This document shows, piece after piece, positions 1-47,255 of a stretch of 64,000 bases of DNA. How positions within the stretch are numbered: position 1 is the stretch's first letter; the number at the start of each line of letters is the position of its first letter. This DNA is from Lepidurus packardi (Eukaryota > Arthropoda > Branchiopoda > Notostraca > Triopsidae): positions 12,276,001-12,340,000 of the forward strand of contig JAKZAN010000005.1 of NCBI GenBank assembly GCA_023053545.1. The letters run 5' to 3'. The notes beneath the pieces were generated by a model, which did not search any database, had not been told where the DNA came from, and worked only from the letters and a program-made list of their open reading frames with translations. Made by a program: the position numbers and the translations under genes.

Positions 1-390
1 TGATGGCGATCCGGTAGATACCGGAACACTCAAAGTAAGGGAAGTCGGAACTGAAACAAGTAAGGAATCGGTGGTTGTAACGATGGATGACAATGGCGAT
101 CCGATAGTTACCGGCACAGTTGAATCTGAGAACCCTGGTGGAAAGGAAACCTAAGCCAAGGACGTGACAATAACAAATATGCGAAAGTTATCACATCGAT
201 TAGAATGCTAGTTTGCTGGATGTGGAGAGAGGTTAACTCGATTGCTAAATTCTATTAGCCACGTGAATCAGAAGCATGGAATGAACTGCGTAATCGAAGA
301 GCGTAGTTTTCCAGACGAGGAGAGGTTTTTAGCCTGGAAGATTAGCATTGAAAAGAGGCAAAGTGTTTCCTTGGTTAACTATGGAGGTTA
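1..390 (+). mobile_element. Broken partial copy of the OTU-MULE gene (middle segment)
   Basis: This stretch matches the middle of the intact gene at 19139-22558 (its short TMDDNGDP-type repeats and the third C2H2 finger) and the second partial copy at 11068-11600. It carries in-frame stops that the other copies lack: a TAA around 152 where the other copies have a Pro codon, and a TAG around 210 in the Cys-Tyr-Phe part of the finger. Similarity to the intact gene stops near 385, at the same point where the 11.1 kb copy stops, and the two partial copies share the sequence beyond it. It is cut by the window edge. No transposase part is present, so it is a non-autonomous relic. Confidence 0.8.
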
Positions 391-2981: not shown

Positions 2982-3039
2982 TGCGTACAGGTTGCAGTTG
3001 AGTCCGAAGGAATGAATTTTCTTCTCTCCCGGCGGTCGC

Positions 3040-3046
3040 ATTTATA
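3040..3046 (-). promoter_or_regulatory. TATA box of serine protease homologue 1
   Basis: TATAAAT on the minus strand, about 60 bp upstream of the start codon at 2981, with a TCATT initiator-like site near 3010. The same arrangement is found in front of the other two units (8895-8901 and 17964-17970), which supports a functional core promoter. Confidence 0.6.
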
Positions 3047-3061
3047 TTTTTCTTGACTAGA

Positions 3062-3840
3062 GTGAAGAGCCGCCTCTGATTTCAGTTCAGGAAGACTTTC
3101 GGCAACTGGAAAGGCTTCTCACTAGAAAATAAAACTTTATAAAATACGACAGGTGGTGATAACACGTGATGAGAGAGATTGGCTTATTTGTGGTTGTAAA
3201 CTTAATGATTCTTCCATACAAATTATATGTTCAAGTCTTTAGCTAGTCGTTTGTAGAAGGAAGTCTGCAATTTGGAAGTAATGAGATGCGTCGTAGGACC
3301 TTCGTTCAAGGACCTAGCAAGCTACAGTTAATTGTATAACTTTATTGACGTGCCCTAGTTTGAAAGAAGATGTAACTTCATGCTGTGAAATAAGATAGAC
3401 ACACACGGTACACATGTTGCTTCATTTAACAAAACAGTTGTTGCTTTTAACATAATTGGATTCCTTGATTATCATAGAAAGCAATAGCACGCATGCTAAA
3501 CTCGAAATGAAAAAAGCATTGATCCCGGAACTAGAAATTTGTCAATGAAATGTACCTTCTAATTTCGTTTCTAAGTTAAAGCTACTCGTGCTCGTAGCAG
3601 GACCGGACAGGGAGGCGTAAATTTGCTAATTATAGCGCCGTTCACATCTAGTTTATTAATAATCATACAAATTTAAATAATTCAATTTTCTTCAAATAAA
3701 GTTTTTGTATTGTCAATCTCAAATTTCATTATTGGTCAGCAAGGCGGATATGGTTTTGTTACAAGTTGTCGACAAAATTATTAACCCAACCAACCAAATG
3801 AATATATTGAAGGTTTAAAGCTTTGGAATCCGCCCGCAAT
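3062..3840. repeat. Duplicated 5' flank of the protease-homologue unit (copy 1)
   Basis: About 780 bp upstream of unit 1, repeated with few differences at about 8935-9415 (unit 2, cut short by a retrotransposon relic) and 17990-18765 (unit 3). It contains no coding sequence. The shared flanks show that the units arose by segmental duplication, not by retroposition. Confidence 0.8.
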
Positions 3841-3903
3841 GCTTTCTTCTTCTTGTTGTTGTTGTTCTGTTTTTAGTCAAAACTGTGCTATCTAATAAGC
3901 ACA

Positions 3904-7187: not shown

Positions 7188-8836
7188 TTAAACTTTACCA
7201 GTTGTTTGATCAATCCAGCTCAGGTAATTCGTCACTTTGGTGTAAACTCCAGGATAGAATTCTCTTCCGCAGCCCTGTCCCCAGCTAAATAGCCCAATCA
7301 AGTACGTGTTCGTTCCACTTTGCCAATTGACAGGGCCACCTCCATCACCCTACGGAGAAGAAGAACAAGTTATGAAATGCCGTAACAAATAAGAAAATTC
7401 TCAAATTCCCAAATTACTTGGCAGGAACCGACGTAAGATTGACCGAACATGCAAAACGTGTTATCCGCGATTTCAGAACTAGTATACATGTAAGGGAGCG
7501 TTGAACACTGATTTTTATTCAAAATAGAGAGAGTCGTTTCCAAGAGTTTACTTGAAATAGAGCCGGTTGAGTCGATATAACCCCAACCTATCAAAACAGA
7601 CAGTTATTGCGAGTTATTGTATCATTTTGTGCTTAACGAGCGCGGATTAAAGGTTGCGGGTACTCGATGCAGTTGCTCAGCGCGCCCAACTGACAGGGAC
7701 GATAACTGTACCAGGATTTGTTTCTTTTCGGCAAAAGATTTGTTTCTTTTCTGTTTTTTTTTTTTGTTTTCTAGGATTTGTTTCTTTTCGGCCATGCTTA
7801 GAGCAACAACCCAGGCACGAGTAACGCTCTGCCCGTACTGACTATAATATATCTTAGATTTGCTTACCGGTCACTGTAGCATTCTGTCCACCAAAATCCG
7901 TTGTTTTAAACTTGTAAGGCAGGCAAATGGGCTGGATGGCAGAACTCAAAGGCGCCGGCTTAATCAGTCTTAACAGTGCAATGTCGTAATTAGTGGCAGA
8001 TGGGATGAACTGCGGGTGGATCATGATGGTGGCATTTGTTACCTGTTATGCATTTCGTAAAAACAACTATATATCTTTTCAAGAGAGGACGAGTTATACG
8101 TACGTGAAGAGCAGTTACTGTGATGTCATTAATTCCCAGGTAGACATCGACTCTCTTTACAGAAACGAAGCAGGTAGCAGATGAAACGACCCAGTTTTCG
8201 CTGATCAGACTGCCTCCACAACGTGTAGTATTGTCCAACAACAAATAGGCCATCCAAGGCCATTTTTTCAGGGTAGATTCTTGGCCACCTGCGATACGAT
8301 TCTGTCAATATAGTCAAGTTAATTGTGAGTTGAGAGCGAAGTATTAAAAACTACTGTACTGTATTTGTTGAATTTCCTTTGATGCCGCAGGTGCAGGCAA
8401 CGGCACTACCACACCCAAATTGTCGCAAGTAAGAGGCCATGCGACTTAAAGCTAAAAAACAAACAAACAGTGTAATGGTTGTTCTTGGAAGTATGAAACT
8501 TGAAAATGTAAATGAAAGTTAGTCAAATAAGGACTTACGAGAGAGTACAGCGCGCTCCCAGAGGCTCACGTCCGTTTTCGTTGGCTCTACGGGGTTTGGT
8601 TCGGAACTCTAGCGTTCGAATTTATTTTTAGTAATTTTTACATTTTCCAGTAAGTACAGTATAAGGAAATGTGTTTGACTCACGTGTTGCTGTTGGCTCA
8701 GTAGGAATGCGAGCAAACCGGGTTCTACTTTGGTGGGCCCAACACCGTCAGCATCGTCACCGTTTGGGTTGACCGCGGATGCTAAGGCAAAAATCCCAAA
8801 CAGGGCTACCAACACCACGGAAAACTTGGAACTCAT
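7188..8836 (-). CDS. Secreted serine protease homologue 2, catalytically dead (His to Thr, Ser to Gly)
   Basis: Seven exons: 8684-8836, 8539-8608, 8360-8451, 8104-8301, 7868-8042, 7418-7587, 7188-7349; 340 codons, 339 aa, intact. Signal peptide MSSKFSV..., pro-region with a CTCG motif, S1 domain starting NR-IAGG. Asp191 of the triad is kept (YDIALL); the His position is SSATC (T148) and the Ser position GDGGGP (G289). Both Cys of the His loop are present, unlike copy 1. Relative to copy 1, exon 3 lost nine bases (the Pro-Thr-Gly before CSCG) and its donor lies nine bases further downstream, so exon length and phase are unchanged. Same TATA promoter and flanks as the other units. Non-enzymatic role inferred; function unknown. 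Confidence 0.85.
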
Positions 8837-8894
8837 TTCGTTTACGTTTCAGTTGAGTCCGAAGGAATGAATTTTCTTCGCTCCCGGCCTTCGC

Positions 8895-8901
8895 ATTTAT
8901 A
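8895..8901 (-). promoter_or_regulatory. TATA box of serine protease homologue 2
   Basis: TATAAAT about 60 bp upstream of the start codon at 8836, in the same position as in the other two units. Confidence 0.6.
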
Positions 8902-8934
8902 TGTTTCTTGACTAGAGTGAAGAGCTGCGTCTGA

Positions 8935-9415
8935 TTTCAGTTCAGGAAGACTATCGGCAACTTGAAAGGCTTCTCACTAGAAAATAAAACTTTATAAAAT
9001 ACGACAGGTGGTGATAACACGTGATGAGAGAGGTCGGCTTATATGTGGTTGTAAACTTAATGATTCTTCCATACAAATTATATGTTCAAGTCTTTAGCTA
9101 GTCGTTTGTAGAAGGAAGTCTGCAATTTGGAAGTAATGAGATGCGTCCTTGGACCTTCGTTCAAGGACCTAGCATGCTACAGTTAATTGTATAACTTTAT
9201 TGACGTACCCTAGTTTGAAAGAAGATATGTAACTTCATGCTGTGAAACAAGATAGACACACACGGTACACATGTTGCGTCATTTAACAAAACAGTTGTTG
9301 CTTTCAACATAATTAGATTCCTTGGTTAGCATAGCATAGCACAGCATAGCACGCATGCTAAACTCTAAATGGAAAAAGCATTGATACCGGAACTAGAAAT
9401 TTGTCAATGAAATGG
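8935..9415. repeat. Duplicated 5' flank of the protease-homologue unit (copy 2, truncated)
   Basis: Matches 3062-3540 and 17990-18475. Similarity stops abruptly near 9415 where the retrotransposon relic begins, which suggests that the insertion or a deletion followed the duplication. Confidence 0.75.
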
Positions 9416-10660: not shown

Positions 10661-11067
10661 TTTGTAGTTATGGTGGAAAATTCGGAAGGTAAGGCTGTTA
10701 TTATGCGGAATTTTGGAAGTTCTTACAAAAATCAGTGTATTTCCTACAAAAATGCACTAATAGTAAAGCTAAGCGTATGAATCGCTAGTGCATAACCCAT
10801 ACAGAATTTTTTCCATGCATAATACATTAGAAGTACGCAAATTTAAGGTTTCAGCTACCTGAAATACGTGAAACTAAAAATAAGCCATTGGCTGTGCACT
10901 TCCACTTTCCACTAGAATAGGAAAATGTATGGAGTACATTCTTTTCAACAGCACGGCGACGAATTTAGTTGTAAAAGTCCAGTCCAGTTTCGCCAGTTAA
11001 TTGCAGTTCTACAGCCTTTCCTACAGTTGCAGTATTTTACATTCTATTGTAAACAAAGAAAAGATAA
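10661..11067. other. Gene-free spacer
   Basis: No feature seen; AT-rich, with short overlapping chance frames only. Confidence 0.4.
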
Positions 11068-11606
11068 GAAAAACCGGATCCGAAAGAGGTTTCGAAGGTT
11101 TCACAATGGTGGTTGTAACAATAGATGAAAATGGCGTTCCGATAATTATCGATACACCCAAAGTAAGGCAAATTAGAGCCGAAGCAAGTAGTGAATCGAT
11201 GATTGTAACGATGGATGATAGCGATCCGGTAGTTAGCGGAACACCCAAACTAAGGGAAGTCGAAGCCGAAACAAGTAAGGAATCGGTGGTTGGAACGATG
11301 GATGACAATGGCGATCCGATAGTTACCGGCAAAGTTGAATCTGAGAACCCTGGTGGAAAGGAAACCCCAGCCAAGGACGTGACAATACCAAAGATGCGAA
11401 AGTTATCACATCGATTAGAATGCTATTTTGCTGGCTGTGGAGAGAGGTTAACTCGATTGTTAAATTCTATTAGCCACGTGAATCGAAAGCATGGAATGAA
11501 CTGCGTAATTGAAAAGCGTAGTTTTCCAGACGAGGAGAGGTTTTTAGCCTCGAAGATTAGCATTGAAAAGAGGCAAAGTGTTTCCTTGGTTAACTGTAGA
11601 TGTTAA
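11068..11606 (+). mobile_element. Second partial copy of the OTU-MULE gene (repeats and third finger)
   Basis: Open through the region matching residues about 362-540 of the intact protein at 19139-22558: the RKTGSER segment, three short TMDD-type repeats and the C2H2 finger beginning CYFAGCGE. It ends in a TGT-TAA stop at 11606 exactly where similarity to the intact gene ends; beyond that the sequence agrees with the copy at 1-390. The frame has no inner stop, but no promoter, OTU domain or transposase is attached. It may be a relic, or a small truncated protein if a start is supplied upstream (a Met occurs at 11001 in unrelated sequence). Confidence 0.7.
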
Positions 11607-14915: not shown

Positions 14916-15024
14916 CGCGTTGACGTTCAAGACGGATGACTGAAGAGCCTTTACTTTCAAGATGGGCATCTATACGAAGAAGCCAGATCAGTTTAAGCCA
15001 GGTAACTGTCGGTTACTTTAAAGG

Positions 15025-15555
15025 CTTTTCACTGGAAAAGACCCTTTATCAAATCGACAGGTGGTCCTTGCACTGGATTAGAGTGAAGTTCGTGTTAGTT
15101 GTTGATACTTTAATTGCTCGTAATTACAGATAATAAATGCCTCTTCCTAGTACTTTTTAAGTAATGGCTCCAATTATAAAGCTATGGAAAGCGTCTTACA
15201 AGCCTTTTAATCATTTCCTTATTGGATTCTTCCAAGGATCTAGTCCACATAGGCACTTGTACAACTTTTAATTGGTGTGACCGAATTTGAAGCCACTTCT
15301 GTACCACTCAATTCATTAACACGTTTCGTAAGTTGGGTTTTGTGGAATGAAATGACGCAAGCCACTATAAACCCCAAGTTAATCGCAGCAATAATGTCTT
15401 TGATCACGCAATGCAAGAAATACATGTGCGTAGGATTTTGATAGGGAGTATCTGAACCAAACAAACTCAAAAAATAACTTATGCAGTTACCTTAGCGTTA
15501 TGTTATGTAAAGGGTTAATTCCTAATCGTAAGCTTATAACCTAACTTTTTATCTT
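15025..15555. repeat. Dispersed duplicated segment with a small membrane-like frame (copy 2)
   Basis: Second copy of 4848-5400. The minus-strand frame here is 15240-15470 (76 codons, ending TSAYVD) and differs from copy 1 at about ten positions. A four-base-scale difference upstream of the hydrophobic stretch removes the splice-acceptor-like AG present in copy 1. Confidence 0.35.
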
Positions 15556-15744
15556 TGCAAGTGATATCTCATAATTTCTAGTGTGAATATTTTCAATTTT
15601 CATCCAGTTCTATAAATTTTATACATTATTGTACGAATTAGATGTAGTTGTACAGTATTCCGATTATATATTACAATAATATATTACAATCAATACTACT
15701 ATACTATACTATATAACAATATTTACAATATTACAATTATATAT

Positions 15745-15850
15745 TACAATGTCAACTGCAGCGGTCGTGGCCGCGCGAACCGTGGTGGGTGGGGCAACGG
15801 AACTACCACAAGTGAATGTTCGCAAGAACTATGCGATTGAAAGCTAAAAG
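15745..15850 (-). pseudogene. Fragment of a protease-homologue exon 3
   Basis: The minus strand has an acceptor-like TTTTAG, then a decayed form of the FSRM...QFGCGSAVA segment seen in exon 3 of the intact units, without a usable frame. It is flanked by poly-TATTACAA sequence at 15655-15745. Confidence 0.55.
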
Positions 15851-16322
15851 GACAATAACGCACACGGGTTTCTTTAATTGCGTAATAAAATAAATCCTTT
15901 TTGGGTTGTTGCCAATAATTTCCGGTTCAAAAAGTAACAAAATTAACGAAAAAGGCAATACTATCTATGTATTCTATTAAACTCTTTACCAAGTATTGAA
16001 GAAAACGAACCAAAATGACTGGGTCGATCATTTTGAAAAACCCGGTTCAGCTGAATTAAGGACATTAGAGACTGATTTCATTTTTGGTTTATATAATTCC
16101 CAATTGTATTATCCCATTGTTTAACCCAATCCTTTAATGCAATTATATTTTTTGTAGTTGAATCACACAGGTCGATTGATTCACAATGTCTGCTGTGGTC
16201 TTCCAAATTCTGGATACATTTGTCGCCTCAATTAGATTGCACTTATATATTGCAAAATGTCTGGCCTGTAAAAGGTAGGGAAAAGATTTCCTTGAAATTT
16301 AAAAAACCACTACTATTTTTCC
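15851..16322. repeat. Duplicated 3' flank of the protease-homologue unit (copy 3)
   Basis: From about 16030 it matches 1095-1393 and 6900-7187. No coding sequence. Confidence 0.7.
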
Positions 16323-17905
16323 TTAAACTTTACCAGTTTTTTGGTCAATCCAGCTCAGGTAATTCGTCAGTTTGGTGTACACTCCAGGATAGAATTCGCT
16401 TCCGCATTCATATCCCCCGCTATTTAGCCCAATCATGTAAGTGTTTGTTCCACTTTGCCAATTGACAGGGCCACCTTCATCACCCTACGGAGAAGAACAA
16501 GTTATGAAATGCCGTAAAAATAAAAAATTTCTCAAATTCCCAAATTACGTAGCAGGATCCGACGCCGACTTGACGGAACATGCAAAACATGTTATCCGTG
16601 ATTTCAATACTAGGATGCTGGAAAGGGGTCGATGTACACTGAGTTCGGTTAAAAATTGATAGAGTCGTTTCCAAGAGTTTATTTGAATTAGGGACCTCAT
16701 CCATGGGGCTACCCCAACCTAGCAAAACCGACAGTTATTGTATCGTTTCGTGCTTAACGAGCGCCGGTTAAAGGTTGCGGGTACTAGAGGCAGTTGCTCT
16801 GCGCGCCCAACTGACAGGGGCGCTAACTGTACTCGGATTTGTTTCTTTTCGTCAAAAAGGGGCCATGCTTAGAGCAACAACCCAGGGCACGAGTAACGCT
16901 CTGCCCGTACTGACTATAATATATCTTAGATTTGCTTACCGGTCACTGTAGCATTCTGTCCGGTAAAATTCGTTGTAATAAACTTGTAAGGTAGGCAAAT
17001 GGGCTGGATGGCAGCACTCAAAGGCGCCGGCTTAATCAGTCTTAACAGTGCAATGTCGTTATCTCTTTTAGAAAAGTCGAAGTTCGGATGGATCATGATG
17101 GTGGCATTTGTTACCTGTTATGCATTTCGCAAAAACAACTGTTTACATATCTTTTCAAAAGATGACAAGTTATACTTACGTGAAGGGCAGTTACTGTGAT
17201 GTCATTAATTCCAAGGTAGACATTGACACTCTTTACAGAATTGAAGCACCAAGCAGTTGAAACGACCCAGCTTTCGCTGATCAGAGTGCCTCCACAACTC
17301 CTTTTATTGTCCATTAACAAATAGGCCATCCAGGGCCATTTTTTCAGGGTAGATTCTTGGCCACCAAAGATACGATTCTGTGAATATAGTCAAGTTAATT
17401 GTGAGTTGAAAGCGAAGTGTTGAGAAGTACTGTATTTACTGAGTTTCCTTTGATGCCGCAGCTACAGGCTGGGGCAACGGCACTACCACACCCAAATTGT
17501 CGCAAGTAAGAGACCATGCGACTGAAAGCTAAAATTACAAATAAACAGTGTAATGATTGTTCTTGGAAGTATGAAACTTGAAAATGTAATTATAAGTCAG
17601 TCAAGTAAGGACTTACGAGAGAGTACGGCGCGCTCCCAGAGGCTCACGTCCGTTTTCGTTGGCTCTACGGGGTTTGGTTCGGAACTCTAGCGTTTGAATT
17701 TATTTAAGACATTTTAAAGTAAGTACACTATAAGGAACTGTGGTTGACTTACTTGTTGCTGTTGGCTCAGTAGGAATGCGAGCAAACCGGGTTCTACTTT
17801 GGTGGGCCCAACACCGTCAGCATCGTCGCCGTTTGGGTTACCCGCGGAAGCTAAGGCAAAAATCCCAAACAGGGCTACCAACATCACGGAAAACTTGGAA
17901 CTCAT
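16323..17905 (-). CDS. Secreted serine protease homologue 3, catalytically dead (His to Trp, Ser to Glu)
   Basis: Seven exons: 17753-17905, 17617-17686, 17440-17528, 17180-17377, 16940-17114, 16549-16718, 16323-16484; 339 codons, 338 aa, intact. Signal peptide MSSKFSV..., pro-region with CSCG, S1 domain beginning NR-IFGG. Asp190 kept (NDIALL); His position STAWC (W147); Ser position GDEGGP (E288). The substrate-pocket SWG of the other copies is SGG here, so even the binding cleft is altered. The His-loop Cys pair is present. The combination of an intact frame with complete loss of the active site argues for a retained non-enzymatic protein, not a decaying one. Confidence 0.85.
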
Positions 17906-17963
17906 TGCGTATAGGTTGCAGTTGAGTCCGAAGGAATGAATTTTCTTCGCTCCCGGCGGTCGC

Positions 17964-17970
17964 GTTTATA
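17964..17970 (-). promoter_or_regulatory. TATA box of serine protease homologue 3
   Basis: TATAAAC about 60 bp upstream of the start codon at 17905, same place as in units 1 and 2. Confidence 0.55.
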
Positions 17971-17989
17971 GTTTTCTTGACTAGAGTGA

Positions 17990-18765
17990 AGAGCCGCCTC
18001 TGATTTCAGTTCAGGAAGACTATCGGCAACTGGAAAGGCTTCTCACTAGAAAAAAAACTTTATAAAATACGACAGGTGGTGATAACACGTGATGAGAGAG
18101 ATTGGCTTATGTGTGGTTGTAAACTTAATGATTCTTCCATACAAATTATACGTTCAAGTCTTCAGCTTGTATTTTGTAGAAGGAAGTCTGCAATTTGGAA
18201 GTAATGAGATGCGTCGTAGGACCTTCGTTCAAGGACCTAGCAAGCTACAGTTAATTGTATAACTTTATTGACGTACCCTAGTTTGAAAGAAGATATGTAA
18301 CTTCATGCTGTGAAACAAGATAGACACACACGGTACACATGTTGCTTCATTTAAAAAAACAGTTGTTGCTTTTAACATAATTGTATTATTTGGTTAGCAT
18401 AGCAAGCAATAGCACGCATGCTAAACTCGAAATGAAAAAGGCATTAATCCTGGAACTAGAAATTTGTCCATGAAATGTATGGCCTTATTTCGTTCCGAAG
18501 TTAAAGCTACTCGTGCTCGTAGCAAGATCGGACAGGGAGCCGTGAATTTGCTAATTATAACGCCGTTCACATCTAGTTTATTAATAATTATACAAATATA
18601 AATAATTCAATTTAAAAAAAAAAGGTTTTTGTATTGTCAATCTCAAATTTCATTGGTCTGCAAGGCGGATATGGTTGTGTTACAAGTCTTCTGCAAAATT
18701 GTTAACCCAACCCCCTAAATAAATATATTGAAGGTTTAAACCCTTGGAATCCGCCCGCAAAGCCA
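17990..18765. repeat. Duplicated 5' flank of the protease-homologue unit (copy 3)
   Basis: Matches 3062-3840; the similarity ends at a shared CCGCCCGCAA word near 18765, about 370 bp before the start of the OTU-MULE gene. Confidence 0.75.
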
Positions 18766-19138
18766 TTCGTCCTGTCGGTAAGGCCTAACAGTGACTCTTC
18801 TGTATTGTCCAAGCCGCGCCCCGGCACGCCTCGCCCAGTCCCCAGTCTTCTACTTGTATGGCGTTCATCTGTCAACGTGGCTTTGAAAAGCCTTCCAAAA
18901 CCTATTAAATTTTCAAACTTTCCGTCTTATTTGTGAGAAATTCGAGTGTCAAAGTTTCTTCTCATCACCTCCCTCGACCCTGGTAAATGTATATCATATC
19001 GTATTTGCGTCCTTTTATCGCATTTATCTCATTTACTAATTTGTATCCGTTTGTTTACTTTCTGTAGATTCAAGTTAATTTCATTGTTGGCGGCACAATT
19101 TGCCAAGTTACTCAAATCCCGGTGCCGTCAAATGAGAC

Positions 19139-22100
19139 ATGGCGTTAGAAAGAGCGAAACAGTTCGCAATATGGCGTGCCAATTTGCAGAAAGTAACCGG
19201 TTTACCGTCAACCACCCAAAATGACATTTCTAACGATCCCATCATCGTTTCCTCGTCGGGATTCGAGAGATTCCGCCAAATCTGCCTGGTTTACAAGAAG
19301 CAGTTCGCTCGCTTCCCTATACCTACCCAACTGATCCCCCCCGACACGATTGTGCTGAACCAAATCGAAGCTTTCGCCACCCAAGTTTTCCCTGAGAAAT
19401 TCACCAGCGATTTCGTGGCGCTCAAGAGCACCAGCAATGGCAACTGCTTCTACAACTCGGCCTCTCTCTCTCTCTTCAACTGCGAGGACTACGCTGAAGA
19501 AATCCGCTGTCGAGTCGTCGTGGAACTCGCCACCAACTACGAGCTTTACTCTCGCGAATCCGAGTTTCTTTCCAAAGATCAAATCAGTCAAATGGTCAAT
19601 TCCTCAGGCGTCGACATCGACCGCGTTTCCTTTCCCGGCCCCAGCAACGATACCGGCGTGAAAAACTCCGAACAAACCATCAAATACTACTGCCTGGAGC
19701 AAACGAAGGAATTTGAACACGCCTCCATCATCTCCTTCCCAGCTTTAGCGAACGCGCTTAGCGTAGCCGTGGAATCGATTTACCCTTATCCTGATATCGA
19801 TCCCAATGCATCCGATCATCCAGCCTTCCACTTCAATGTCGTTTTCCAGCCCCAAAATGAGCTCATTTCGGGAACTATTAGGATGTTGTGGACGGGAAAC
19901 TTCCACCTAACCTGCGAATTTAAAAGTGGCCGTCTCGTGATAGGTAAGGACTGGTCGCCAAACCACTTTGTTCCAGTTTTGGAACGCGCGCAAACATTGG
20001 ATCTGTCGACTATAACAGAGTCAGACGCAGCGCTTTTCATTTGCAAATGGTGCAACACGACTTTCACCCGCAAATCCAACTTGAAAATCCACTTGGGGAA
20101 GTCCCGTTGCCATTCGCGCGAACCCTTGTTTAAATGCACCCAGTGCAGTTCGGGGTTCAGCAGGAAGTTCACCTTAAACCGCCACGTGGCGACCATACAC
20201 GCCCCTGAGAGCGAAAGACCTCCCAAAGTAAGAAAAACCGGATCCGAAAGAGATTTCGAAGGGTTCACTACAGTGGTTATAACGTTGGATGATAATGGCG
20301 GTCCTATAATTATCGGTACACCTCAAAAAACGCAAATTAAAGCCGATGAAATTAGTGAATCGGTAATTGTAACGATGGATGATGGCTATCCGGTAGTTAC
20401 CGGAACTCCCAAAGTCAGGGAAGTCGGAACAGAAACAAGTAAGGAATCGGTGGTTGTAACAACGGATGACAATGGCGATCCCATAATTACCGGTACATTT
20501 GAATCTGAGAATCCTGGTGGGGAGGAAACGCCAGCTAAGAACGCAGTCAATACCAGTATGCGAAAGTTGTCACATCGGTTAGTTTGCTATTTTGATGGAT
20601 GTGGGGAGAGGTTGACCCGATTGTTAAATTATATTGGCCACGTGAATCAAAAGCATGGCATGAACTGCGTAATCGAAGAGGGTAGTTTTCCAGACGAGGA
20701 GAGTTTTTTGGCCTGGAAGATTAGCATTGAAAGGAGCCAAAATGTTTCCTTGGTTAACTGTCGAGGTTCCTCGAGGCACAGATACAGCACCACCACAACA
20801 TTCTTGTGCAACAGATCCTTCTCGTATAAATCACGAGCAGAAGGCAAACGTGCGGCTAAGCGCGTGGGTTCTTGTCGTACCGGCGGCCATTGCACGAGTT
20901 TCATCATTGCAGTAGTGCCCCACGAGACCAAGACCGTGAAGGTACGCTACTGCCTCACCCACGTGCCGCATGATCTTTTGGCGCGAAGGAACCGGCTGCA
21001 CAAAGACGTGCAGGAGGAAGTGATCCAGAAGTTGCAAGCGGGGCTGAGCAAACGGGAAATTGTTGAGAGCATGAACCGATCGACAGAAACTGCAGACGCG
21101 GCATGTAGGGATCACAGTATTACTATCAAGGACGTCCAAAACATTAAGCAGAAGCTGCCCTTGACTCTGGGCATGGCGCGCAGGAGCAATAACAGGGACT
21201 TTACAGGCATTGATGAATTGGTTCGCAAGATGGCGTTGCAGGCGTATAACCCGGTTTTCCTCTTTGAGAAACAAGGGATCTTGGATGATGAAACTGGAGA
21301 AGAAGTCCCCAGCTTTGCGATGGGCATTATCTTCCAGTCGCAGATTAACGTGTTTCAGATGTATGGCAGGAATTGCGTTTGTGTAGACAGTTCCCATAAG
21401 GTCAGTGATCTTCTGCTGACGACGGTGGTGGTTCTGGATGAAGGTGGGCGCGGTCATCCGGTAGCGTTTCTGCTGACTGACTGCGAACATGAAATGTTGT
21501 ATCGGCTGTTTTTCGAGAGGTTATTTAAGAAGGTGGGAGAGATCCGGGCGGAGGAGTTTGTGAGTGAATTGGATGATTCAGCATGGAATGCGTGGGAGAA
21601 GGTGTTTGACGCACGGACCACAGAGAGGAGAGTTTCCAGTTGGCACGTAGAGAAGGCGTGGCACCGGAAACTGAAGGACAACGGACGAGTATCGTCTGGA
21701 GTGGTTTGCACCTTGTTTTGTTTGCTGAGGAGTTTGCTGCGGCTGAAGGATAAGGGAGACTTCCAACGGTGCTTCAAGACCTTCTCGAACTTTGTGGAGA
21801 AACGCAACAAGCTCTTCTCGACGTACTTCTCTGAGCACTTTGCTCCGCGGGCAGACGAGTGGGCAGGGTTTAGCACGACCCACCTCCAAGGTAGGATCAA
21901 CATCTTCCTGGAGTCGTATCACCGAGTCTTACGATACGTCTTCGAGGAAGGTGAGCAGAAGGTCGAAGCCGTGTTAAGGGTACTGGAAAACTACGCCAGT
22001 GATAGTGACTTCAGGGAGTACCTCGTGTACAGGAGCATCCAGAGTGAGAGCGTCGTAGCGGAGACCAATAAAAGACACCGGAATTCGGAGCAGATTCCTG

Positions 22101-22558
22101 ATGACGAGGTGGAGATTGTCTCGGAGAATGAGTGGAGGATCAAGGATTTGGAGACGGGGGCCTATGCCAGAGTTATTAGCCACTCGGATGAGCTATGTGA
22201 TTGCGTTGAGAAATGCGAAGCGTGTGGAGCCTGTAAGGATAATTTCACGTGCGATTGCGAGGATTTTTATACGCAGCGGCTGGCCTGCAAGCATATCCAC
22301 AAGGTTTGCCCGGAGTTACCCTACGATGTACGGAACGTGCACGTCGAAGAGGTACGTGAGTTGGAGAGTCAGAGTGAGAAAGTGGAGAACCGAGACAAGT
22401 TGGCGGACAAGTTAGAATCGTCCAAGTTTTACGTGGACAGCATCAAAGACATCATGACTCCGCTTGTGGAATCGCTTGATCAACGGGCGTACGAACCGGC
22501 GGTACTTCGCGAGATGTACGACCTCCTCCTGGCGGTGAAAAGGGTGACTGAGAAGTAA
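19139..22558 (+). CDS. OTU protease - C2H2 - MULE transposase - SWIM fusion protein
   Basis: One uninterrupted 1139-codon frame. Domains: OTU-type cysteine protease about 90-285 (NGNCFYNS with Cys103; WSPNHFVPV with His276; the usual Asp three before Cys is Asn100); two C2H2 fingers about 298-357; three short repeats of a VTMDDNGDPIITG kind about 377-455; a third finger about 480-505; MULE-type DDE transposase about 640-950 with candidate acidic residues Asp750 (VDSSHK), Asp812/813 (ELDDSAWNAW) and Glu925 (FLESYH); SWIM finger C1038, C1040, C1050, H1052. MULE proteins cut and rejoin transposon ends in the nucleus; OTU enzymes remove ubiquitin. A 5' UTR intron (about 18982-19068, GTAAAT to CTGTAG) is plausible. 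AATAAA lies at 22945-22950. No terminal inverted repeats or target duplications were found, so it could be an active element with ends I missed, an immobile copy, or a domesticated gene. Confidence 0.85.
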   Translation: MALERAKQFAIWRANLQKVTGLPSTTQNDISNDPIIVSSSGFERFRQICLVYKKQFARFPIPTQLIPPDTIVLNQIEAFATQVFPEKFTSDFVALKSTSNGNCFYNSASLSLFNCEDYAEEIRCRVVVELATNYELYSRESEFLSKDQISQMVNSSGVDIDRVSFPGPSNDTGVKNSEQTIKYYCLEQTKEFEHASIISFPALANALSVAVESIYPYPDIDPNASDHPAFHFNVVFQPQNELISGTIRMLWTGNFHLTCEFKSGRLVIGKDWSPNHFVPVLERAQTLDLSTITESDAALFICKWCNTTFTRKSNLKIHLGKSRCHSREPLFKCTQCSSGFSRKFTLNRHVATIHAPESERPPKVRKTGSERDFEGFTTVVITLDDNGGPIIIGTPQKTQIKADEISESVIVTMDDGYPVVTGTPKVREVGTETSKESVVVTTDDNGDPIITGTFESENPGGEETPAKNAVNTSMRKLSHRLVCYFDGCGERLTRLLNYIGHVNQKHGMNCVIEEGSFPDEESFLAWKISIERSQNVSLVNCRGSSRHRYSTTTTFLCNRSFSYKSRAEGKRAAKRVGSCRTGGHCTSFIIAVVPHETKTVKVRYCLTHVPHDLLARRNRLHKDVQEEVIQKLQAGLSKREIVESMNRSTETADAACRDHSITIKDVQNIKQKLPLTLGMARRSNNRDFTGIDELVRKMALQAYNPVFLFEKQGILDDETGEEVPSFAMGIIFQSQINVFQMYGRNCVCVDSSHKVSDLLLTTVVVLDEGGRGHPVAFLLTDCEHEMLYRLFFERLFKKVGEIRAEEFVSELDDSAWNAWEKVFDARTTERRVSSWHVEKAWHRKLKDNGRVSSGVVCTLFCLLRSLLRLKDKGDFQRCFKTFSNFVEKRNKLFSTYFSEHFAPRADEWAGFSTTHLQGRINIFLESYHRVLRYVFEEGEQKVEAVLRVLENYASDSDFREYLVYRSIQSESVVAETNKRHRNSEQIPDDEVEIVSENEWRIKDLETGAYARVISHSDELCDCVEKCEACGACKDNFTCDCEDFYTQRLACKHIHKVCPELPYDVRNVHVEEVRELESQSEKVENRDKLADKLESSKFYVDSIKDIMTPLVESLDQRAYEPAVLREMYDLLLAVKRVTEK

Positions 22559-23522
22559 ATCAAAGGAACCATGGAAAGCTTCTGGATGAGCGTGGAAAGG
22601 AGAGAGTTTTGTAACCAAGGAAAAATTTTGTCGAATGTACAGTACGTGAAGTGTTTACTCTAGTACGGTATTGCTGACTGCTTGAGCTATGTACCTCTTA
22701 CTTAAAATAATTCTTGATTTTCTGACCTATTGACAATATAAGCAGTTCATGTTTACTTAGAACAACACCGTTTCAGATTTCTACTCGGTACGTGAAGTAC
22801 GTATTTTGGATTGGGTGAGTAGATTTAAATGTCCCTATCTTACGAACGTGTTTTAAAAATGACGCAGTATTTTCCTTAGTACGCTCAGGGAAATTGTGGG
22901 GTAAACCAAGGTTAATGTCGTGCGTGTCGTATATTGTACGAAAGAATAAATGTTAGTACTTTGTGTTGAAGGATATCTGGAGCAAGTGAAGCGACTTAAT
23001 TGCGGCAGCTGCGGTACAGTTTGTAGCTCTTGAAAGGAATTCTCGGTGATTAAATAATGAACCGCGCTGGGTAGAAAAAATTCTTGTTATAATCGCTAAA
23101 GAAATGTCCAGCTGTGTCACGATGACAAATTGGAATTGTTTAGTTAACAATGAACAATCTAAATTGAACGTACTAAATCCCTCCGTAGAATTGAAAGGGC
23201 ATATCAAATAGTTAAAAGGAAAACTATTATTTACTATTAACAATGACTTGTTTTTACCAAACGATTATTCCTACGTTATCCTGTAAGTAATTTCGCTTTA
23301 TATAATTTTCTAGAAAATTGTCTGATCATCGCTTCGATCAGATTGTAATTACTCCTCTTTGTATTTGCCATCAATTCTAACCAAAGAGAAAATTCAATAT
23401 TATATTTCTGTATTATTTTCCAGAGCTACAAATTTGGAAAGTATTCATTATACACGGTTTTCATCACTTCAGCATAGTTCCTGGAAGGATAGTATGGTTC
23501 TGGAAATGGCGACGCTTCCCCG
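22559..23522. other. 3' flank of the OTU-MULE gene, otherwise empty
   Basis: Contains a poly(A) signal AATAAA at 22945-22950. Repeats of GTACGTGAAGT occur near 22640 and 22790. A 96-codon minus frame at 22953-23243 has no recognisable feature. Confidence 0.4.
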
Positions 23523-24737
23523 CTAGTGTTTACGTTTGTGGCCGGTAGCACATGCGTCACCACAGCCCTAAGGATGCCCGGGCATGTTAAATAAAAAGCG
23601 AATTGAAAAGGATTGAATAGTTACGTTAGTAGATAAAGCTTTTGCTAAGCATGCCAATCCTTTGGCTTGAGCTAAGCATTCAGGAGTAGCGTTCTGGACC
23701 GGACCAGAAGACTCTGGGCGGCCGCCATTTTGAGGGCGTTGGCCGTTGTTGTTGCCTGGTCCGCCATGGCCGTTAGGAGGTCCTTGCTGATGGTTGCTCC
23801 CTTGAGGGGGGCCATTTTGAGGTTGGTTTTGACCAAAACATTCACTCACTAACAAACGAAAGGTATTGCTTTCAAACATAGATTTCAGATCCGTGTTATC
23901 AATGGAGTTTCTTACTGATGGTTGTAACGGTCGCGGTAGTATTAGCCAGGCAAGTTTTGAGGATATTGGTAGCGTTAGTTTTCTGCACACTCGTCAAGTT
24001 GCTGGTAGTGATAACGGCAGTCAAGCCAGTCAGGCTAACTTTGTTGGTCGAATCAAGCTACATGAAATCCATTACAGATTTACTTTGAAAATGGTCAAAA
24101 ATTGTTAATAAATACCGCTTTCATGTTCTGCAATACACATTTTGGCATACACTGTAAACGGGATGAAAAAGGGACTCATTAGCCATCTGGTTCAATGAGC
24201 AACTTGGTAAAAAAAACTTACGAAAACAGCTGCAGGAGAAGGTGTAGTCTGTGAAATTCAATTAAATTTAGCTATAGATATAAATTTCATGGTTTTATTT
24301 TAAGATTTTTACCCCGGATTGCGCATTCGTTTGATTCCTCGCTAGACATACAATAAAATGACAATTAAGTTTGAAAGTTGATGGCTTTCCCATTATTTGG
24401 CTGACCTGTATCTAAGCAAGTTTTCTCAGCTGCTTTGTTGGCAGCAGACAAGCAAGGAAACTAAAATGGAATAGTTGAAACACTAAAGAACTGTTAAAAA
24501 AGTTACAATTTATTGGCAACTTACGGCATCTCCTCCTGAAAGAAATTCAGAAAGAAATTCGTTAGTTCCTTAAGCCATTTATAGAAACGAAATTGAAAAT
24601 TATACCCTTGGGTCCTTGTTGCTCTGAAGGCTTGACCTATTCAGAAATTGAACGGAATTATAATCTTTCCAAACTCTACTTGCAGTTATATTTACCAATG
24701 CCGCAGCAATAAACGCAACAATAACAAAATACTTCAT
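23523..24737 (-). CDS. Secreted Cys-rich protein with odorant-binding-protein-like spacing (paralogue 1)
   Basis: Ten exons: 24696-24737, 24606-24636, 24525-24535 (11 nt), 24406-24460, 24313-24341, 24222-24248, 24116-24151, 23916-24057, 23625-23848, 23523-23567; 214 codons, 213 aa. Signal peptide MKYFVIVAFIAAAL, then Cys at 31, 43, 66, 70, 113, 128, 182, 191, 201 and 205. C66-x3-C70, 42 residues to C113, and C182-x8-C191 fit the C2-C3-C4 and C5-C6 spacing known for insect odorant-binding proteins; an Asn/Gln/Gly/Pro-rich insert (about 129-178) separates C4 from C5. Several NxT/NxS sites suggest glycosylation. Junctions were set by matching paralogue 2 exon by exon; exon 24313-24341 has no counterpart and was chosen for phase. 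Secreted hemolymph carrier proteins with similar Cys patterns are an alternative. Confidence 0.7.
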
Positions 24738-25444
24738 TTTCCTTAGAGTTTCGTTGACTGTTTGGATTCCACAAGGCGCCGAACTGACAAGTCCTATCAC
24801 TGAATTCGTTCTAACTTGGAATGCTTGTAGACAGGCTTTTTAATAAGAGACTAAGAAGGGGAAGTACTGCAGTATACACCAATTAGACTTAGTCACCTAG
24901 GCAATTACGGGAGGCGAACCGACAGTCTTTTGTCTGATGACAAGGACACTTGCATGTGTTTTAAGGAAGCTTCGGAACTGAAGGGCAAAGAGATTGTGAT
25001 GCATACACTTTTTGTTTTGTTCTTAAAAGTGCCTTTAAAGTTGTCCTATATTGACGATGTAGTTGCAAGGGGACTTGGTTTGTAACGTTGTGTAATTTTT
25101 AAGTACAGTACGTCACCCGATTAGAGTTGTTTATATCCTTTGTAAATGGTTCAAAAACATATGTCGGAAAGCTCCGGGGTACGTTTTAAATATGCCTACT
25201 TATTATACGTTTGAACACCGCGTAAAACTAATAATTCGGTATTCAGCCATTCAAAGTCCCAATTAAGTTGAAACTTATATTTCAGTATTCAGCAATTCTA
25301 CCAACTTAGCAAATACATTCAGTGTACATGCCTGGCAAGCAATAAGTTGTGTACATTGTTAATTCTAATACTTGGACGATAAACTTTTCAGCATAGAAAT
25401 AAAATCACTAAGGGAAATGAAAATCCTGTGAATTTCGCCACTTA

Positions 25445-26984
25445 TCACTGTTTTCCTTTTGGGCCATGACCATTGGATCCTCGTGGAGGACCACAATCCT
25501 ACAATCAAATAAAATTGTAAATAATTTAAAGTGATGGTAATAGTCAAAGTTGTTATTGCGTACGTTGGCAGCTAGTGCTTTTCCTAAACAATCCACGCCC
25601 CTGGCGCTCGCTTGACATTCAGGAGTCATATTTGGAGGTGGACGGCGTCCTCCTGATGGTCCTTTGCCGTTTTGGTTTTCCTCCTTTAGTACTCTGCCAT
25701 TTTGGTTTTTACCACCTGGTCCTTTAGCTCCATTACTTTGATTAGGTGCAGTTGTGCTCGATTCGTTTGACTCTGCTGACTCTGATTCCATTTCTGTACT
25801 TTCATCTTCTTCGGACTGCCCGCTTTCATCTCGATTACGGCCAGCCTGAGATCCTTTGCCATTGGTGTTTTTCCCTTTTGATCCTTTGCCATTTTGGTTT
25901 TTACCGTTGTGGTTTTTACCACTTTGTCCTGTAGTTCCTTTATTTTGATTAGGCGCGTTCGTGGTCGATTCATTGGACTCTCCTGACTCTGATTCCACTC
26001 TTCTGTTTTCATCGTCTTGAGACTGCCCGTTTTGATCTTGATGGTGGCCAGTTTTAGTTCCTTTGCCGTTTGTGTTTTTCTCCGTTGGTCTTTTGCCATT
26101 TTGGTTTTTACCACCTGCTGGTCGGGTAGTTCCTTTATTTTGATTAGGTGAGTGTGTGCGCGATCCATTGGGGTCAGTACTGCCATCTGTGGCGGAATCA
26201 GCCAAGCAAGTCTTTAGGATATTGGTAGCGCTAATTTTCTGCGAATCTGTCAAATTAGCTCTGTTAATAACAGCAACCAAAGCTTCAGTGTCGACTTGGT
26301 TGGAAGAATCAATCTAAATAATATGTAAAGAAGAACATGGTATCCTTGTTAGTAAATATAATTGTAGCATCATTAGTACCGCTTTGAGTTGTTGCAGAAG
26401 ACATTTAGGAGGACACTAGCGAAAACTTAATTAATTCGAAAACTTCGATTAAAATATAACAAATCAATCTTACGAAGTTGGTATCGTTAGACTTTACGTT
26501 CGTCGCAAACAACTGTACTTCGTCCGACGTTTCAAAACGCCACCAATAATCACTTCGCCATAGTGGCCTTTTCTCTGTAAAATAATAACAAGTAATTTTT
26601 AGAGCTAATTTTGTAGAAATCCTTGGTAGAAATTTACCCATGCAGGTTTTACCAGCTTCTTTGTCAGCGGAAGATAGACAAGGAAACTAAAAAGAGGATT
26701 GACACTACATCTGTCTTAATTCAAGTCTTGCAAACTTACGGGTTCTCCTGTAAGAATTATGCAAAATTAAGCTCAGTTGCGAAGTATTGATTCAAGTAAC
26801 TGAACTTACCTTTGGGTCCTCCATCATTGGGTCGTTCGGTATTACCACCAGGTTTCTGGGCCTAAAAGTACACCGATAGAGGGATACTTTGTAAGAAAAC
26901 TTCTCGAAGATTAACCTTCTGGACTAGGTATAAAATACTTACCATTGCCAGAGCAACAAGAAGAGCGAAAATATAAAACCTCAT
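25445..26984 (-). CDS. Secreted Cys-rich protein with odorant-binding-protein-like spacing and a large repeat insert (paralogue 2)
   Basis: Eight exons: 26943-26984, 26810-26861, 26740-26747 (8 nt), 26638-26686, 26474-26574, 26380-26415, 25564-26313, 25445-25498; 364 codons, 363 aa. Signal peptide MRFYIFALLVALAMA. Cys at 37, 49, 85, 89, 132, 329, 338 and 348. C85-x3-C89, then 42 residues to C132 (the same count as paralogue 1), and C329-x8-C338. Between C132 and C329 lie about 196 residues of Asn/Gly/Lys/Ser/Glu-rich sequence built from two full and one partial repeat of about 65 residues, each beginning near PNQNKGT and ending near ESNEST, with alternating basic and acidic blocks. The folded core seems split by a disordered insert. 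Ligand and tissue cannot be read from the sequence. Confidence 0.75.
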
Positions 26985-27050
26985 GTTTTACTTTGGTGTA
27001 CGTTTTGCACAGCGATGAACTACTATTACTTTTTAGAAATTCGCCTGGGT

Positions 27051-27852: not shown

Positions 27853-30800
27853 ATGGCGAGCAGTGATAAAGCTCTTAAGGTAATACAATGAATGGCTTTT
27901 ATTTTCTCTTAACATCGAGTTATATTAGGATGAAATCCATTACTTCAGTCGCGAACAAATGTACTTTGCCATGCAAGATTTGGCTACCCAAGGTCTTCGT
28001 CGTTATCCTGGCCAGGAAATCTTCAAACTCTACCATTCCTTAGCTTTATTACTGCAAAATAAGCTTTCCGAAGCGACTTCGGAACTCGAATCCCTTCAAG
28101 TAATCATTTGAACCTCCAAAAATCCTTTACAAACCTCTAGACCACTCACTTTTTTCTTCTAGCAAGCACCTGGAGTGAAACTGGCCGCTTATTTAGCCCT
28201 TATTTATGCCCTTCGGTGCTCCAGCAGTACCAATAAGGACCAAATGGCTGACCTCGACGCCAAAGTCAAAGAAGAGCGCAAGAAAGCCTCAGAAGAAACG
28301 CTTTACCACGCCGCTCTCTTTCTAAACATCGTCCATCGCTATGACAAAGCTCGAGAATACTCCGACCGCATGCTAAAACTCAACCCGACATTCCAAGAAG
28401 GCCTTATCCTCAAAGGCTGGATTGATTTACGTTCCCAAGATGCGACCAGGAAGAAAGATTCACTACAATACTTTACCAACGCGTTAGTCCATGAACCGCG
28501 TCGAATGGACGCTCTTATGGGCAAATTCACCTACCATTTAACCCAGGGAGAGCCTGAGTTAGCCACTGAAGTGGTTAATCAACTGATTGTCACCTTTTCC
28601 AACCATTGGACTCCTTTAGCAGAGAAATTGCGCTTGCAACTCTCCTTAAAAGAGTGGGACCCGGCCAAAGACGCCTTAAAGCGGTACATTTGGTTACATC
28701 TTCTCTTTTTAAAGCATCTTTGATAACTTTTCTTTTCATTTAGAGTCTTGAACATAAACCCGGACTGTTTAATGGCTGTTAAGTTCCAAATTTTGCAAAC
28801 TTTGTGCCGCGATGGTAGCACTGAAGATGCTGGAAGTCTCATTCGCCAATATTACAGCATTTTGGAGAAGAATGAGCCTCGGAGTGCTAATTTATTTTAC
28901 GAGGCTGCGCAACTTTACTCCCGTGTGGTAATCCAAACTTAAAAAAACGCAAATCTTGTCTTTTTACAAAAGAAAAGAAATTTTTTTCATTGGGAGACTT
29001 ATTCTAATATTGCTTTTTTAATTTCATGAAATATTTCTTCTTCTATACACAAGGTAGTATTAAAAATCGTAATTTAATGATTTTTTACATTTTGTTTTCA
29101 TAGTGTGGGAACCATATGGGAGTTTTGGCGGAATGCCAACGCTTGGCAGAACGAGCTGTGCAACTGGATTCCAAAGAAGCCGAGTTTGTGACGGAATTGG
29201 CGAGACAACACGCCTTACAAGGCAAAGTTAAAGAAGCTTTAAGACTTTACAAAACCGCCACCAAGTTGGATGAAGCCTCCATTCCAGCCGTGTGCGGAGT
29301 CACGTGGTGTTTACTCGAAGACGGGCAGTTAGATACCGCTCAACAGCAATTGGATTTCCTGCAGGAAATTTTGGGCGCCGAAGACGTCACCAGCGAGTTT
29401 TTGTACCTGAAAGCGGTCTATATTCGCAAACGCAACACTGCCCAAGGCGATGTTCTAGGTATAACTTCCAAAAACGGCGCAACATTGTTGTCTTTTTGTA
29501 CTTTTCTTACATTTCTGGCGTTTTTCTTGCAAGTTGTAGGGTTCGAGAGTGAATGGAAGATGGAGTTAAGGTTTGGGAGACAGAATTAATGCACTCATTC
29601 GTGTTTTTCTTGTTAGGACTCTTGGATCAAGCTGCAGAAGTACGGTTGACACAAATTCAGGGGTTTTATTACGGTGCGGAATTCCTGATACGATTAAATC
29701 CGGCTTTGGTGACCCAAATTACGAATGAGTACCTCTATTGGGCTCCTACAGAGGTAGTTTGCGCTTTTCATCAAGTTTGGGAAGCTAAAGTCAGTCTTGG
29801 ATAGCCCTTGGGAGAGGGACAGAGCCATGCGGCCTTAGCTGGAGCCATAAAAGTCATTGAATTTGCGATTTTAGCGTGTCCTGGTCTGTTGCCCGCGTTG
29901 TACGCCTTGGCGAAAGCCTGTTATTTGAATGGAGACTTCAAAGCTGCACACAGCACTGTTCAACGCCTACTCCAAGACGTTGGTAAGATCAAAACTGAAC
30001 GAAATTGGAGAGTAAAACTCAAAAAAAAAGTTTTTGTATAGTTAATTCATTTGATTTACTTTATTTTTCTAGATCCGACATTCGCTGAAGGGCATTTATT
30101 AATGGCGCAAATCCAATTACACCAAGGCAATTATACGCTCGCTGGGGCTAGCTTAGAGAAGGGATTAAGCTACAATTTTCACGTAAAAAAGCGACACGAA
30201 AGTAAAAATGCCTGGGAATTCATTTTTTTGCTTTTTTTTGCATAAAGGTGCGAGAATATCCATTATATCACTTGATTTCGGCCAAAGTGCTCCGACACAG
30301 AGGTGAAGTACCCCAAGCCGTAACTAGTTTACACACAGCCATGGTTCTCGCCGGCTTGAAGCCTTCAAGTGAGTTTCTTTTCTCCGGAAATGTCACATTG
30401 TGACACTTGGATCGCTCATTTGGGTGCGTTTTTAGGCGCTGGAATGAAGAAAGCTAAGGTGGAGTTGTCTACCAGGGACCAAGCTGTCTTGTACATGGAA
30501 TTAATCACAGCATTACAGCAAACTAACCAGAAAGAAGAGGCGGGACGACTCATGCAAGAGGCGTTGACCAAATTTCGGGTATTTTTAAAATTTTAAAATT
30601 TTAAAATTTTTTATTATTTTTTTTTTTTTTTATAAAGACATCTTGTAAGTTTAAGCGTATGACTTCATAAGAAGAGTTAGGGTGGGGAATTTCCTTTTTT
30701 TAAACTACGTAGGCTTTCGCGTGTGGTCGTGTTTGAAATTCTTCGCTTCTCTATTCTTACATTCCATTCGGTTTAGCGTGCTAGAACAGAACAGGGAATG

Positions 30801-47026: not shown

Positions 47027-47255
47027 TTGATACCAATACAGTTAAAAAGTGTTGATACCAATACCGTTGAGAAGTGTTGATACCAATACCGTTGAGAAGT
47101 GTTGATACCAATACCGTTGAGAAGTGTTGATACCAATAGCAGTAGTGTTGATACCAATACCGTTGAGAAGTGTTGATACCAATAGCAGTAGTGTTGATAC
47201 CAATACCGTTGAGAAGTGTTGATACCAATAGCAGTAGTGTTGATACCAATACTGT
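47027..47255. repeat. Minisatellite with two alternating unit types
   Basis: About ten units begin GTTGATACCAATA; one form continues CCGTTGAGAAGT (25 bp), the other GCAGTAGT (21 bp). Several long overlapping frames across it are a by-product of the repeat and are not genes. Confidence 0.9.

Follow-up and report, generated by a model that had tools for sequence, protein, structure and literature searches.

A gene joining an OTU-like domain to a MULE transposase with an altered catalytic core in Lepidurus packardi, probably a domesticated transposon derivative

A 64,000-nucleotide stretch of the genome of the notostracan Lepidurus packardi (contig JAKZAN010000005.1, here C4, positions 12276001-12340000; this whole stretch is called the window) carries on its forward strand a gene of 1139 codons plus stop (window positions 19139-22558), which joins an OTU-like (ovarian tumour) domain, C2H2-type fingers, a Mutator-like (MULE) transposase core and a SWIM-type motif. 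No other intact copy of this kind was found in the genome assembly searched (108.6 Mb, 344 contigs). An earlier note, made from the sequence alone, had recognised this fusion correctly and had suggested that it could be a transposase guarded by its own protease. We argue here that the gene is probably an immobilised derivative of an OTU-carrying MULE that its host has domesticated.

The gene and its domains

The 3417 coding bases are uninterrupted, as the earlier note had reported. The OTU-like domain occupies residues 80-285 (19376-19993, +) and was delimited by profile and alignment. It does contain the expected Cys103 (19445-19447) and His276 (19964-19966), within STSNGNCFYN and SPNHFVPV, respectively; both residues and the GNC motif are invariant across nine aligned OTU sequences. 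Direct detection by Pfam is weak. The Pfam OTU model (PF02338) has no match in the window protein at E ≤ 1, a genome scan with it gives four places, none of them at this gene, and among the proteins of three relatives described below it scores in P0005 only (E 0.042). The OTU identity comes instead from a profile search. The profile used, A1, is an alignment of five OTU sequences, that of the window and those of four relatives. At a cut of E ≤ 0.1, it finds four proteins (P0007-P0010; E 1.7e-17 to 1.7e-21), including one of the fungus Rhizophagus irregularis; all four exceed the Pfam OTU cut-off by themselves and have the motif NGNCFFNSAS. Because of this search, the N-terminal domain is, as judged from sequence, a divergent OTU domain. 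Among solved structures (up to E 10), A1 matches six chains with non-significant E values of 0.22-0.71, five of A20 and one of a viral RNA-dependent RNA polymerase, all of which we take to be OTU domains. AlphaFold2 models of the domain have a mean predicted local distance difference test score (pLDDT) of 31.7 (single sequence) or 34.0 (five sequences), too low to use, and none of 166 pattern matches in viral contigs screened for OTU relatives was confirmed. As a lead rather than a test, an unverified version of the human vertnin sequence scores 53.2 bits with A1 and 61.4 bits with a further OTU profile, A3; 2000 shuffles gave at most 4.2 and 2.4 bits, respectively.

Three finger-like motifs follow, at the number previously noted. 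C2H2-like finger 1 (residues 302-325, with C302, C305, H318 and C324/H325; 20042-20113, +) and finger 2 (residues 333-354, with C333, C336, H349 and H354; 20135-20200, +) are seen both by Pfam and in the sequence, the Pfam C2H2 scores of both being below cut-off (22.8 bits for the window protein vs. 25.2). C2H2-like finger 3 (residues 483-506, with C483, C488, H501 and H506; 20585-20656, +) is read from the sequence and aligns with the relatives. The MULE catalytic core spans residues 736-935 (21344-21943, +). In the window protein, the MULE model (PF10551) scores 22.8 bits (E 1.3e-4), a marginal value under the 27.6 cut-off; in the genome scan, it reaches 27.4 bits at the gene, or 27.6 if neighbouring matches in frame are counted. 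In three relatives, the scores are 38.5-49.5 bits, and the window core can be aligned with the relatives along its length. Finally, the CxCx9CxH motif of SWIM type, CDC-x9-CKH, is present as claimed at residues 1038-1052 (22250-22294, +) and aligns with relatives; this assignment is one of motif pattern, Pfam SWIM having no match in the window protein at E ≤ 1. The profile searches that the earlier note had called for thus bear it out in part: OTU is found through A1 and not by Pfam directly, MULE is marginal here and clear in three relatives, and SWIM is not found by Pfam.

No family was matched in an NCBIfam scan of the window protein. Comparison with the protein collection gave zero homologues at E ≤ 0.001, for the full window protein among 7992 candidates and for the transposase region of one relative among 5223. 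An assembly join of two genes is ruled out, because relatives with the same order exist elsewhere in the genome: the OTU motif and the MULE core with its D2 region lie in one frame at 10 other loci, so that the earlier reading of the frame as a single gene stands. A chance open frame is ruled out by length and homology.

Multi-copy relatives and the altered transposase core

Beyond the window gene, the genome contains at least 93 OTU rows and at least 75 transposase rows; these are rows of matches, several of which may belong to one copy, and five of the OTU rows are broken pieces of the window gene itself. From 62 other MULE matches, we examined 20 regions, each of about 9.9 kb, as well as 8 short loci, picked for long frames and high scores. 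Many pairs of these relatives are 95-99% identical over kilobases, and their frames reach 1480 codons. The order of their parts is OTU, C2H2 fingers, a finger plus a Cys/His-rich region, MULE core, SWIM motif and then, in some, a PHD-like finger. The PHD-like Cys/His pattern, labelled by sequence, stands at the C terminus of L016, L017, L020, L021, L024, and L029; in neither P0004 nor P0005 does Pfam report a PHD domain at E ≤ 0.1. Domain order in the window copy is otherwise identical, but this last finger is missing; when window 22001-26000 was searched in translation with the C-terminal parts of two relatives, no PHD-like finger was found there either. Both ends of two copies, L016 and L019, were examined. 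In L019, a plausible 8-bp target duplication, GCACTGTA, flanks both limits of similarity, and GCTATTGGTACCAC occurs as an imperfect inverted motif; in L016, the inverted motif is present with no target duplication. The near-identical multi-copy relatives, together with the plausible duplication in one of the two copies examined, suggest that the family was recently active.

The window gene departs from these relatives at its cutting site. Of the catalytic candidates in the earlier note, D750 (21386-21388) and E925 (21911-21913) correspond in the alignment to the relatives' D1 and E, but the second catalytic residue placed at 812/813 has to be abandoned. Indeed, an ungapped alignment sets FVSELDDSAWNAW of the window opposite FMSDMADQFWLAW of the relatives, which brings Glu810 (21566-21568) to the D2 position. 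The motif reads FVSEL in the window vs. FMSDM in the relatives, with Asp in 26 of 26 relative rows from 21 distinct loci. Asp813, three places past D2, is likewise Asp in 25 of the 26 rows. The CxxH motif is SSWH, where Ser833 (21635-21637) replaces the Cys and the His is kept, vs. CIWH in all 27 relative rows (22 loci). Five loci occur twice among these 27 rows, and the tally dropped frames of fewer than 250 codons and frames that did not fit the patterns (e.g., L025). Further changes affect the core: TNM of the relatives is INI in the window, and the strand after D1 is shorter by two residues. In place of the DDE triad of MULEs, the window protein therefore has D750, Glu810, and E925. Replacing any one of the DDE residues of Muta1 by Ala abolishes transposition, and the same replacement of the His in CxxH lowers it by 99.5%, according to the part of the report cited here (PMC5225508). 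These data concern Ala and not an Asp to Glu change; hence we infer, from the sequence, that transposase activity has been lost.

Element ends were not recognised either. Among 28 inverted pairs in window 15000-27000, none of the 25 longest could be placed as element ends. The flanks 17901-19138 and 22559-25500 have no match to the 20 relative regions, and no target duplication of 8-10 bp was recognised around the gene. The end motif of the relatives occurs in the window at 15 places with up to three mismatches, vs. 3.0 expected; eight of these lie in one tandem array (47052-47232, -) with GCTATTGGTATCAA-like units. The motif does not bracket the gene, the nearest occurrences, at 11112 (-) and 26218 (+), having the wrong orientation for ends. 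Nor is the gene found as dispersed copies: C3 and C4 are the only contigs with close DNA matches to it, all of them truncated pieces. The genomic copies from which terminal repeats and target duplications were to be defined have thus provided neither for the window gene.

Several relatives have features of their own. Contig C20 carries twelve OTU matches of one type within about 214 kb (21994-236427), with no MULE among the matches listed there. L040, on contig C6, has the same score as these matches and a 400-codon frame, and matches an element in its left part, with 99.4% identity over 1450 bases; the OTU copies of C20 and L040 are perhaps non-autonomous copies that retain the OTU frame. L029 (3147-6475) belongs to a more distant family and contains an OTU remnant, fingers, MULE, SWIM and a PHD-like finger, split by a frame break. 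In L032 (3562-6051, -), the transposase frame continues into letters that, read by eye, resemble a reverse transcriptase, as would be expected from an in-frame insertion of a retroelement.

A trypsin array with truncated sister pieces

Upstream of the OTU-MULE gene lies a divergent trypsin-like gene (16332-17905, -), of which four exon pieces were read (PF00089). The segment between the two genes (18000-18763) is repeated with the trypsin cluster, and this segment and the trypsin-like gene recur in tandem on C4 and C3. In the window, three trypsin-gene units of the array (1875-3842, 7680-9414, and 16801-18763) are 90-92% identical, and the upstream segment is found on C3 as well. Seven further pieces of the OTU-MULE gene are found with the trypsin repeats: L041, L042, L043, L044, L045, a copy represented by L046 and window 1-389, and window 11060-11604. 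Their association with the trypsin segment means that these sister pieces come from segmental duplication rather than transposition. All seven are truncated at the level of the DNA match, and three share identical borders (gene nucleotides 1087-1630) and may stem from one event. The piece at 11060-11604 (+; gene nucleotides 1087-1630) is 85.7% identical to the gene and has three one-base indels. The piece at 1-389 (+; gene nucleotides 1242-1630), which is cut by the window start and begins at C4:12275845, is 87.7% identical, with two stops and two indels. Altogether, five of the seven pieces are disrupted within 242-546 aligned bases by indels, stops or a 45-base insertion. L041 and L044 show no such lesions in the DNA alignment, and their protein matches list one and two TAA codons, respectively.

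Compared with the window gene, the pieces have nonsynonymous/synonymous ratios of 0.24 (L041), 0.33 (L042), 0.24 (L043), 0.58 (L045), 0.48 (window 11060-11604) and, for the same copy, 0.42 (L046) and 0.29 (window 1-389). Fisher p values are 5.3e-5 to 0.039 for the main pieces of six of the seven copies; these tests are not independent because the pieces are interrelated. The L044 piece (65 bases, one change) is uninformative. Secondary alignments give ratios of 0.50 and 1.27, both non-significant, and a 48-base L042 piece has synonymous changes only (p 0.005). Alignments of less than 84% identity or with E above 1e-10, which are off-register matches of internal repeats, some with ratios near 1, were left out. 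From these comparisons, selection seems to have kept the frame open for at least part of the time since duplication.

Rates also differ between regions of the protein. The OTU domain of the window is 40-51% identical to those of three relatives, which are 38-47% identical among themselves, and the corresponding values for the MULE core are 36-44% and 53-63%. Tajima relative-rate tests were made with four comparisons per region, with uncorrected p values, an assumed outgroup placement and one outgroup frame joined with X. In the MULE core, the window lineage is faster in all four (p = 7.4e-6, 3.7e-5, 0.011, and 0.0039). It is faster in one of four for OTU (p = 0.74, 0.25, 0.0067, and 0.51) and in none for the finger region (p = 0.86, 0.85, 0.85, and 0.65). 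Region 641-735 gives p = 0.35, 0.22, 0.23, and 0.20 and the SWIM region p = 0.0027, 0.0047, 0.82, and 0.22. Thus, with one contrary OTU result, the differences between regions favour relaxed catalysis with the OTU and DNA-binding parts kept. The G+C content at third codon positions (GC3) of the window gene is 0.603 vs. 0.363-0.430 in four relatives.

Elsewhere in the window, exons of a TTC21-type (TPR/ARM) gene were identified by Pfam at 28175-29586 (+). A 207-base tandem repeat, present twice, lies at 25703-26112 inside a 290-codon reverse-strand frame that has no Pfam match at E ≤ 0.01.

Origin of the gene, rival explanations and known systems

We consider it fairly likely that the window gene descends from a MULE family whose transposase had an N-terminal OTU domain, C2H2 fingers, a DDE core, SWIM and a C-terminal PHD-like finger, and that it no longer moves and now serves its host. 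In the order of events that we propose, the gene would have landed beside a trypsin gene and been co-duplicated with it in tandem, the window gene being the sole copy to stay intact. The cutting site is altered, with D1 and E retained, the second Asp changed to Glu and the Cys of CxxH to Ser, while the Cys-His pair of OTU and the DNA-binding motifs are retained alongside. Most likely, the host protein would then bind DNA or transposon ends via its fingers and remove ubiquitin from chromatin-bound proteins there, and it could possibly restrain active relatives. Domestication, a retained OTU activity and the DNA target are what we infer from the letters of the gene and its relatives.

A number of observations weigh against this interpretation. 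The piece at window 11060-11604 sits in a still-open 201-codon frame. Pairwise ratios cannot tell which lineage was constrained, gene conversion within the array could blur them, and, because the pieces share ancestry, decay events are fewer than copies. With L029 as outgroup and against L016, the window lineage is faster for OTU too (p 0.0067). The neighbouring trypsin gene has a GC3 of 0.489 (225 codons), so that the codon signal is no more than suggestive. Long frames and high scores guided the choice of relatives, which favours intact catalytic residues. Lastly, the substitutions reported for Muta1 are Ala, and the part of that report cited here does not cover Asp to Glu in a MULE (PMC5225508). 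An old non-mobile copy, still open by chance and drifting without host function, would also account for the loss of the second catalytic Asp, the CxxH Cys and the PHD-like finger, for the lack of recognised ends and for the decay of the sister pieces. However, 3417 coding bases have stayed open while five of the seven sister pieces were broken within 242-546 aligned bases, and the ratios of 0.24-0.58 were obtained against pieces made by segmental duplication with the trypsin segment; such a drifting relic is therefore rather unlikely in our view, if a serious competitor.

Two other explanations suppose a different use of the OTU domain. The window gene could belong to an active MULE in which OTU prevents ubiquitin-dependent decay of the transposase or edits target chromatin, as the earlier note had imagined. 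Near-identical relatives, with many pairs at 95-99% over kilobases, and the plausible 8-bp duplication at L019, although not at L016, agree with such activity. The window copy itself, with Glu810, Ser833, no recognised ends and truncated pieces as its only close copies, makes it highly improbable there, and the idea of a self-protecting transposase suits the multi-copy relatives better. By analogy with vertnin, the gene might also be a host regulator that relies on its DNA-binding parts only, its OTU domain being a binding module or inactive. Inactive OTU-like homologues such as vertnin do exist (PMC10318531, in the part cited), but Cys103, His276, and the GNC motif are kept here and invariant in nine aligned sequences, and we give this possibility very little credit.

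Returning to domestication, a broader and quite speculative view is that OTU domains of MULE-type transposons repeatedly gave rise to host proteins bound to chromatin or DNA. The window gene would be a case with intact OTU residues and a relaxed core, acting as a DNA-targeted deubiquitinase, perhaps against mobile relatives, and vertnin would maybe be an older case that has lost the protease. If the window gene is under selection, it offers a natural separation of the deubiquitinase and DNA-binding parts from cutting, in a genome that still has near-identical mobile relatives. Such a separation makes testable what the ubiquitin proteases of transposons (Ginger1, Helitrons, MULEs) do, and it could reveal the origin of OTU-like, DNA-bound host factors such as vertnin.

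Vertnin (VRTN), as described in the parts of the reports cited here, resembles the window protein by its OTU-like domain, its nuclear location, seen in cultured cells (PMC3024977), and its expected DNA binding (PMC10318531, PMC3024977); it differs in being an inactive homologue whose catalytic residues are lost (PMC10318531). The VTD deubiquitinases are transposon-borne enzymes that became host genes, some of them expressed in the male germline, and this precedent supports domestication of the window gene (PMC9741609). They are of another protease family, however, and the window gene retains its transposase body. The same source, in the part cited, states that the activity of transposon OTU domains had not been tested (PMC9741609).

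Among mobile elements, the excerpts cited already describe several related arrangements, so that the gene, in which the earlier note had seen an animal parallel to the plant MULE proteases, is not the first of its sort among animals. Ginger1 transposases are DNA transposases with OTU or Ulp1, one of them with a PHD finger; Helitrons are a further source of OTU, Mutators of both animals and plants carry Ulp1, and a role of the Ginger1 domains in transposition or repair has been proposed (PMC2836005). In contrast to the window gene, Ginger1 has a Gypsy-integrase-like core and a C-terminal protease. MuDR-6_HM of Hydra is an animal MULE listed with an OTU gene (PMC6446971, Table 1); as compared by this description, its table entry gives no zinc finger, and the window copy differs by its altered DDE core and by lacking recognised ends. 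Rehavkus has a PHD finger comparable to the PHD-like finger of the multi-copy relatives, one of which, L016, has tandem repeats near its ends; this finger is absent from the window copy, and OTU is not mentioned for Rehavkus in the part cited (PMC6446971). Kaonashi elements are MULEs with a ubiquitin-like-protein protease, but this protease is of the C48/Ulp1 type and the hosts are plants (PMC6117577). In searches of the open-licence literature, we found no paper on an immobile OTU-C2H2-MULE-SWIM gene with an altered DDE core. Thus, because OTU- and Ulp-bearing transposases are published (PMC2836005, PMC6446971, PMC6117577), the kind of gene is already known, and what sets the window gene apart is its combination of OTU-C2H2-MULE-SWIM, an altered DDE core and presumed immobility.

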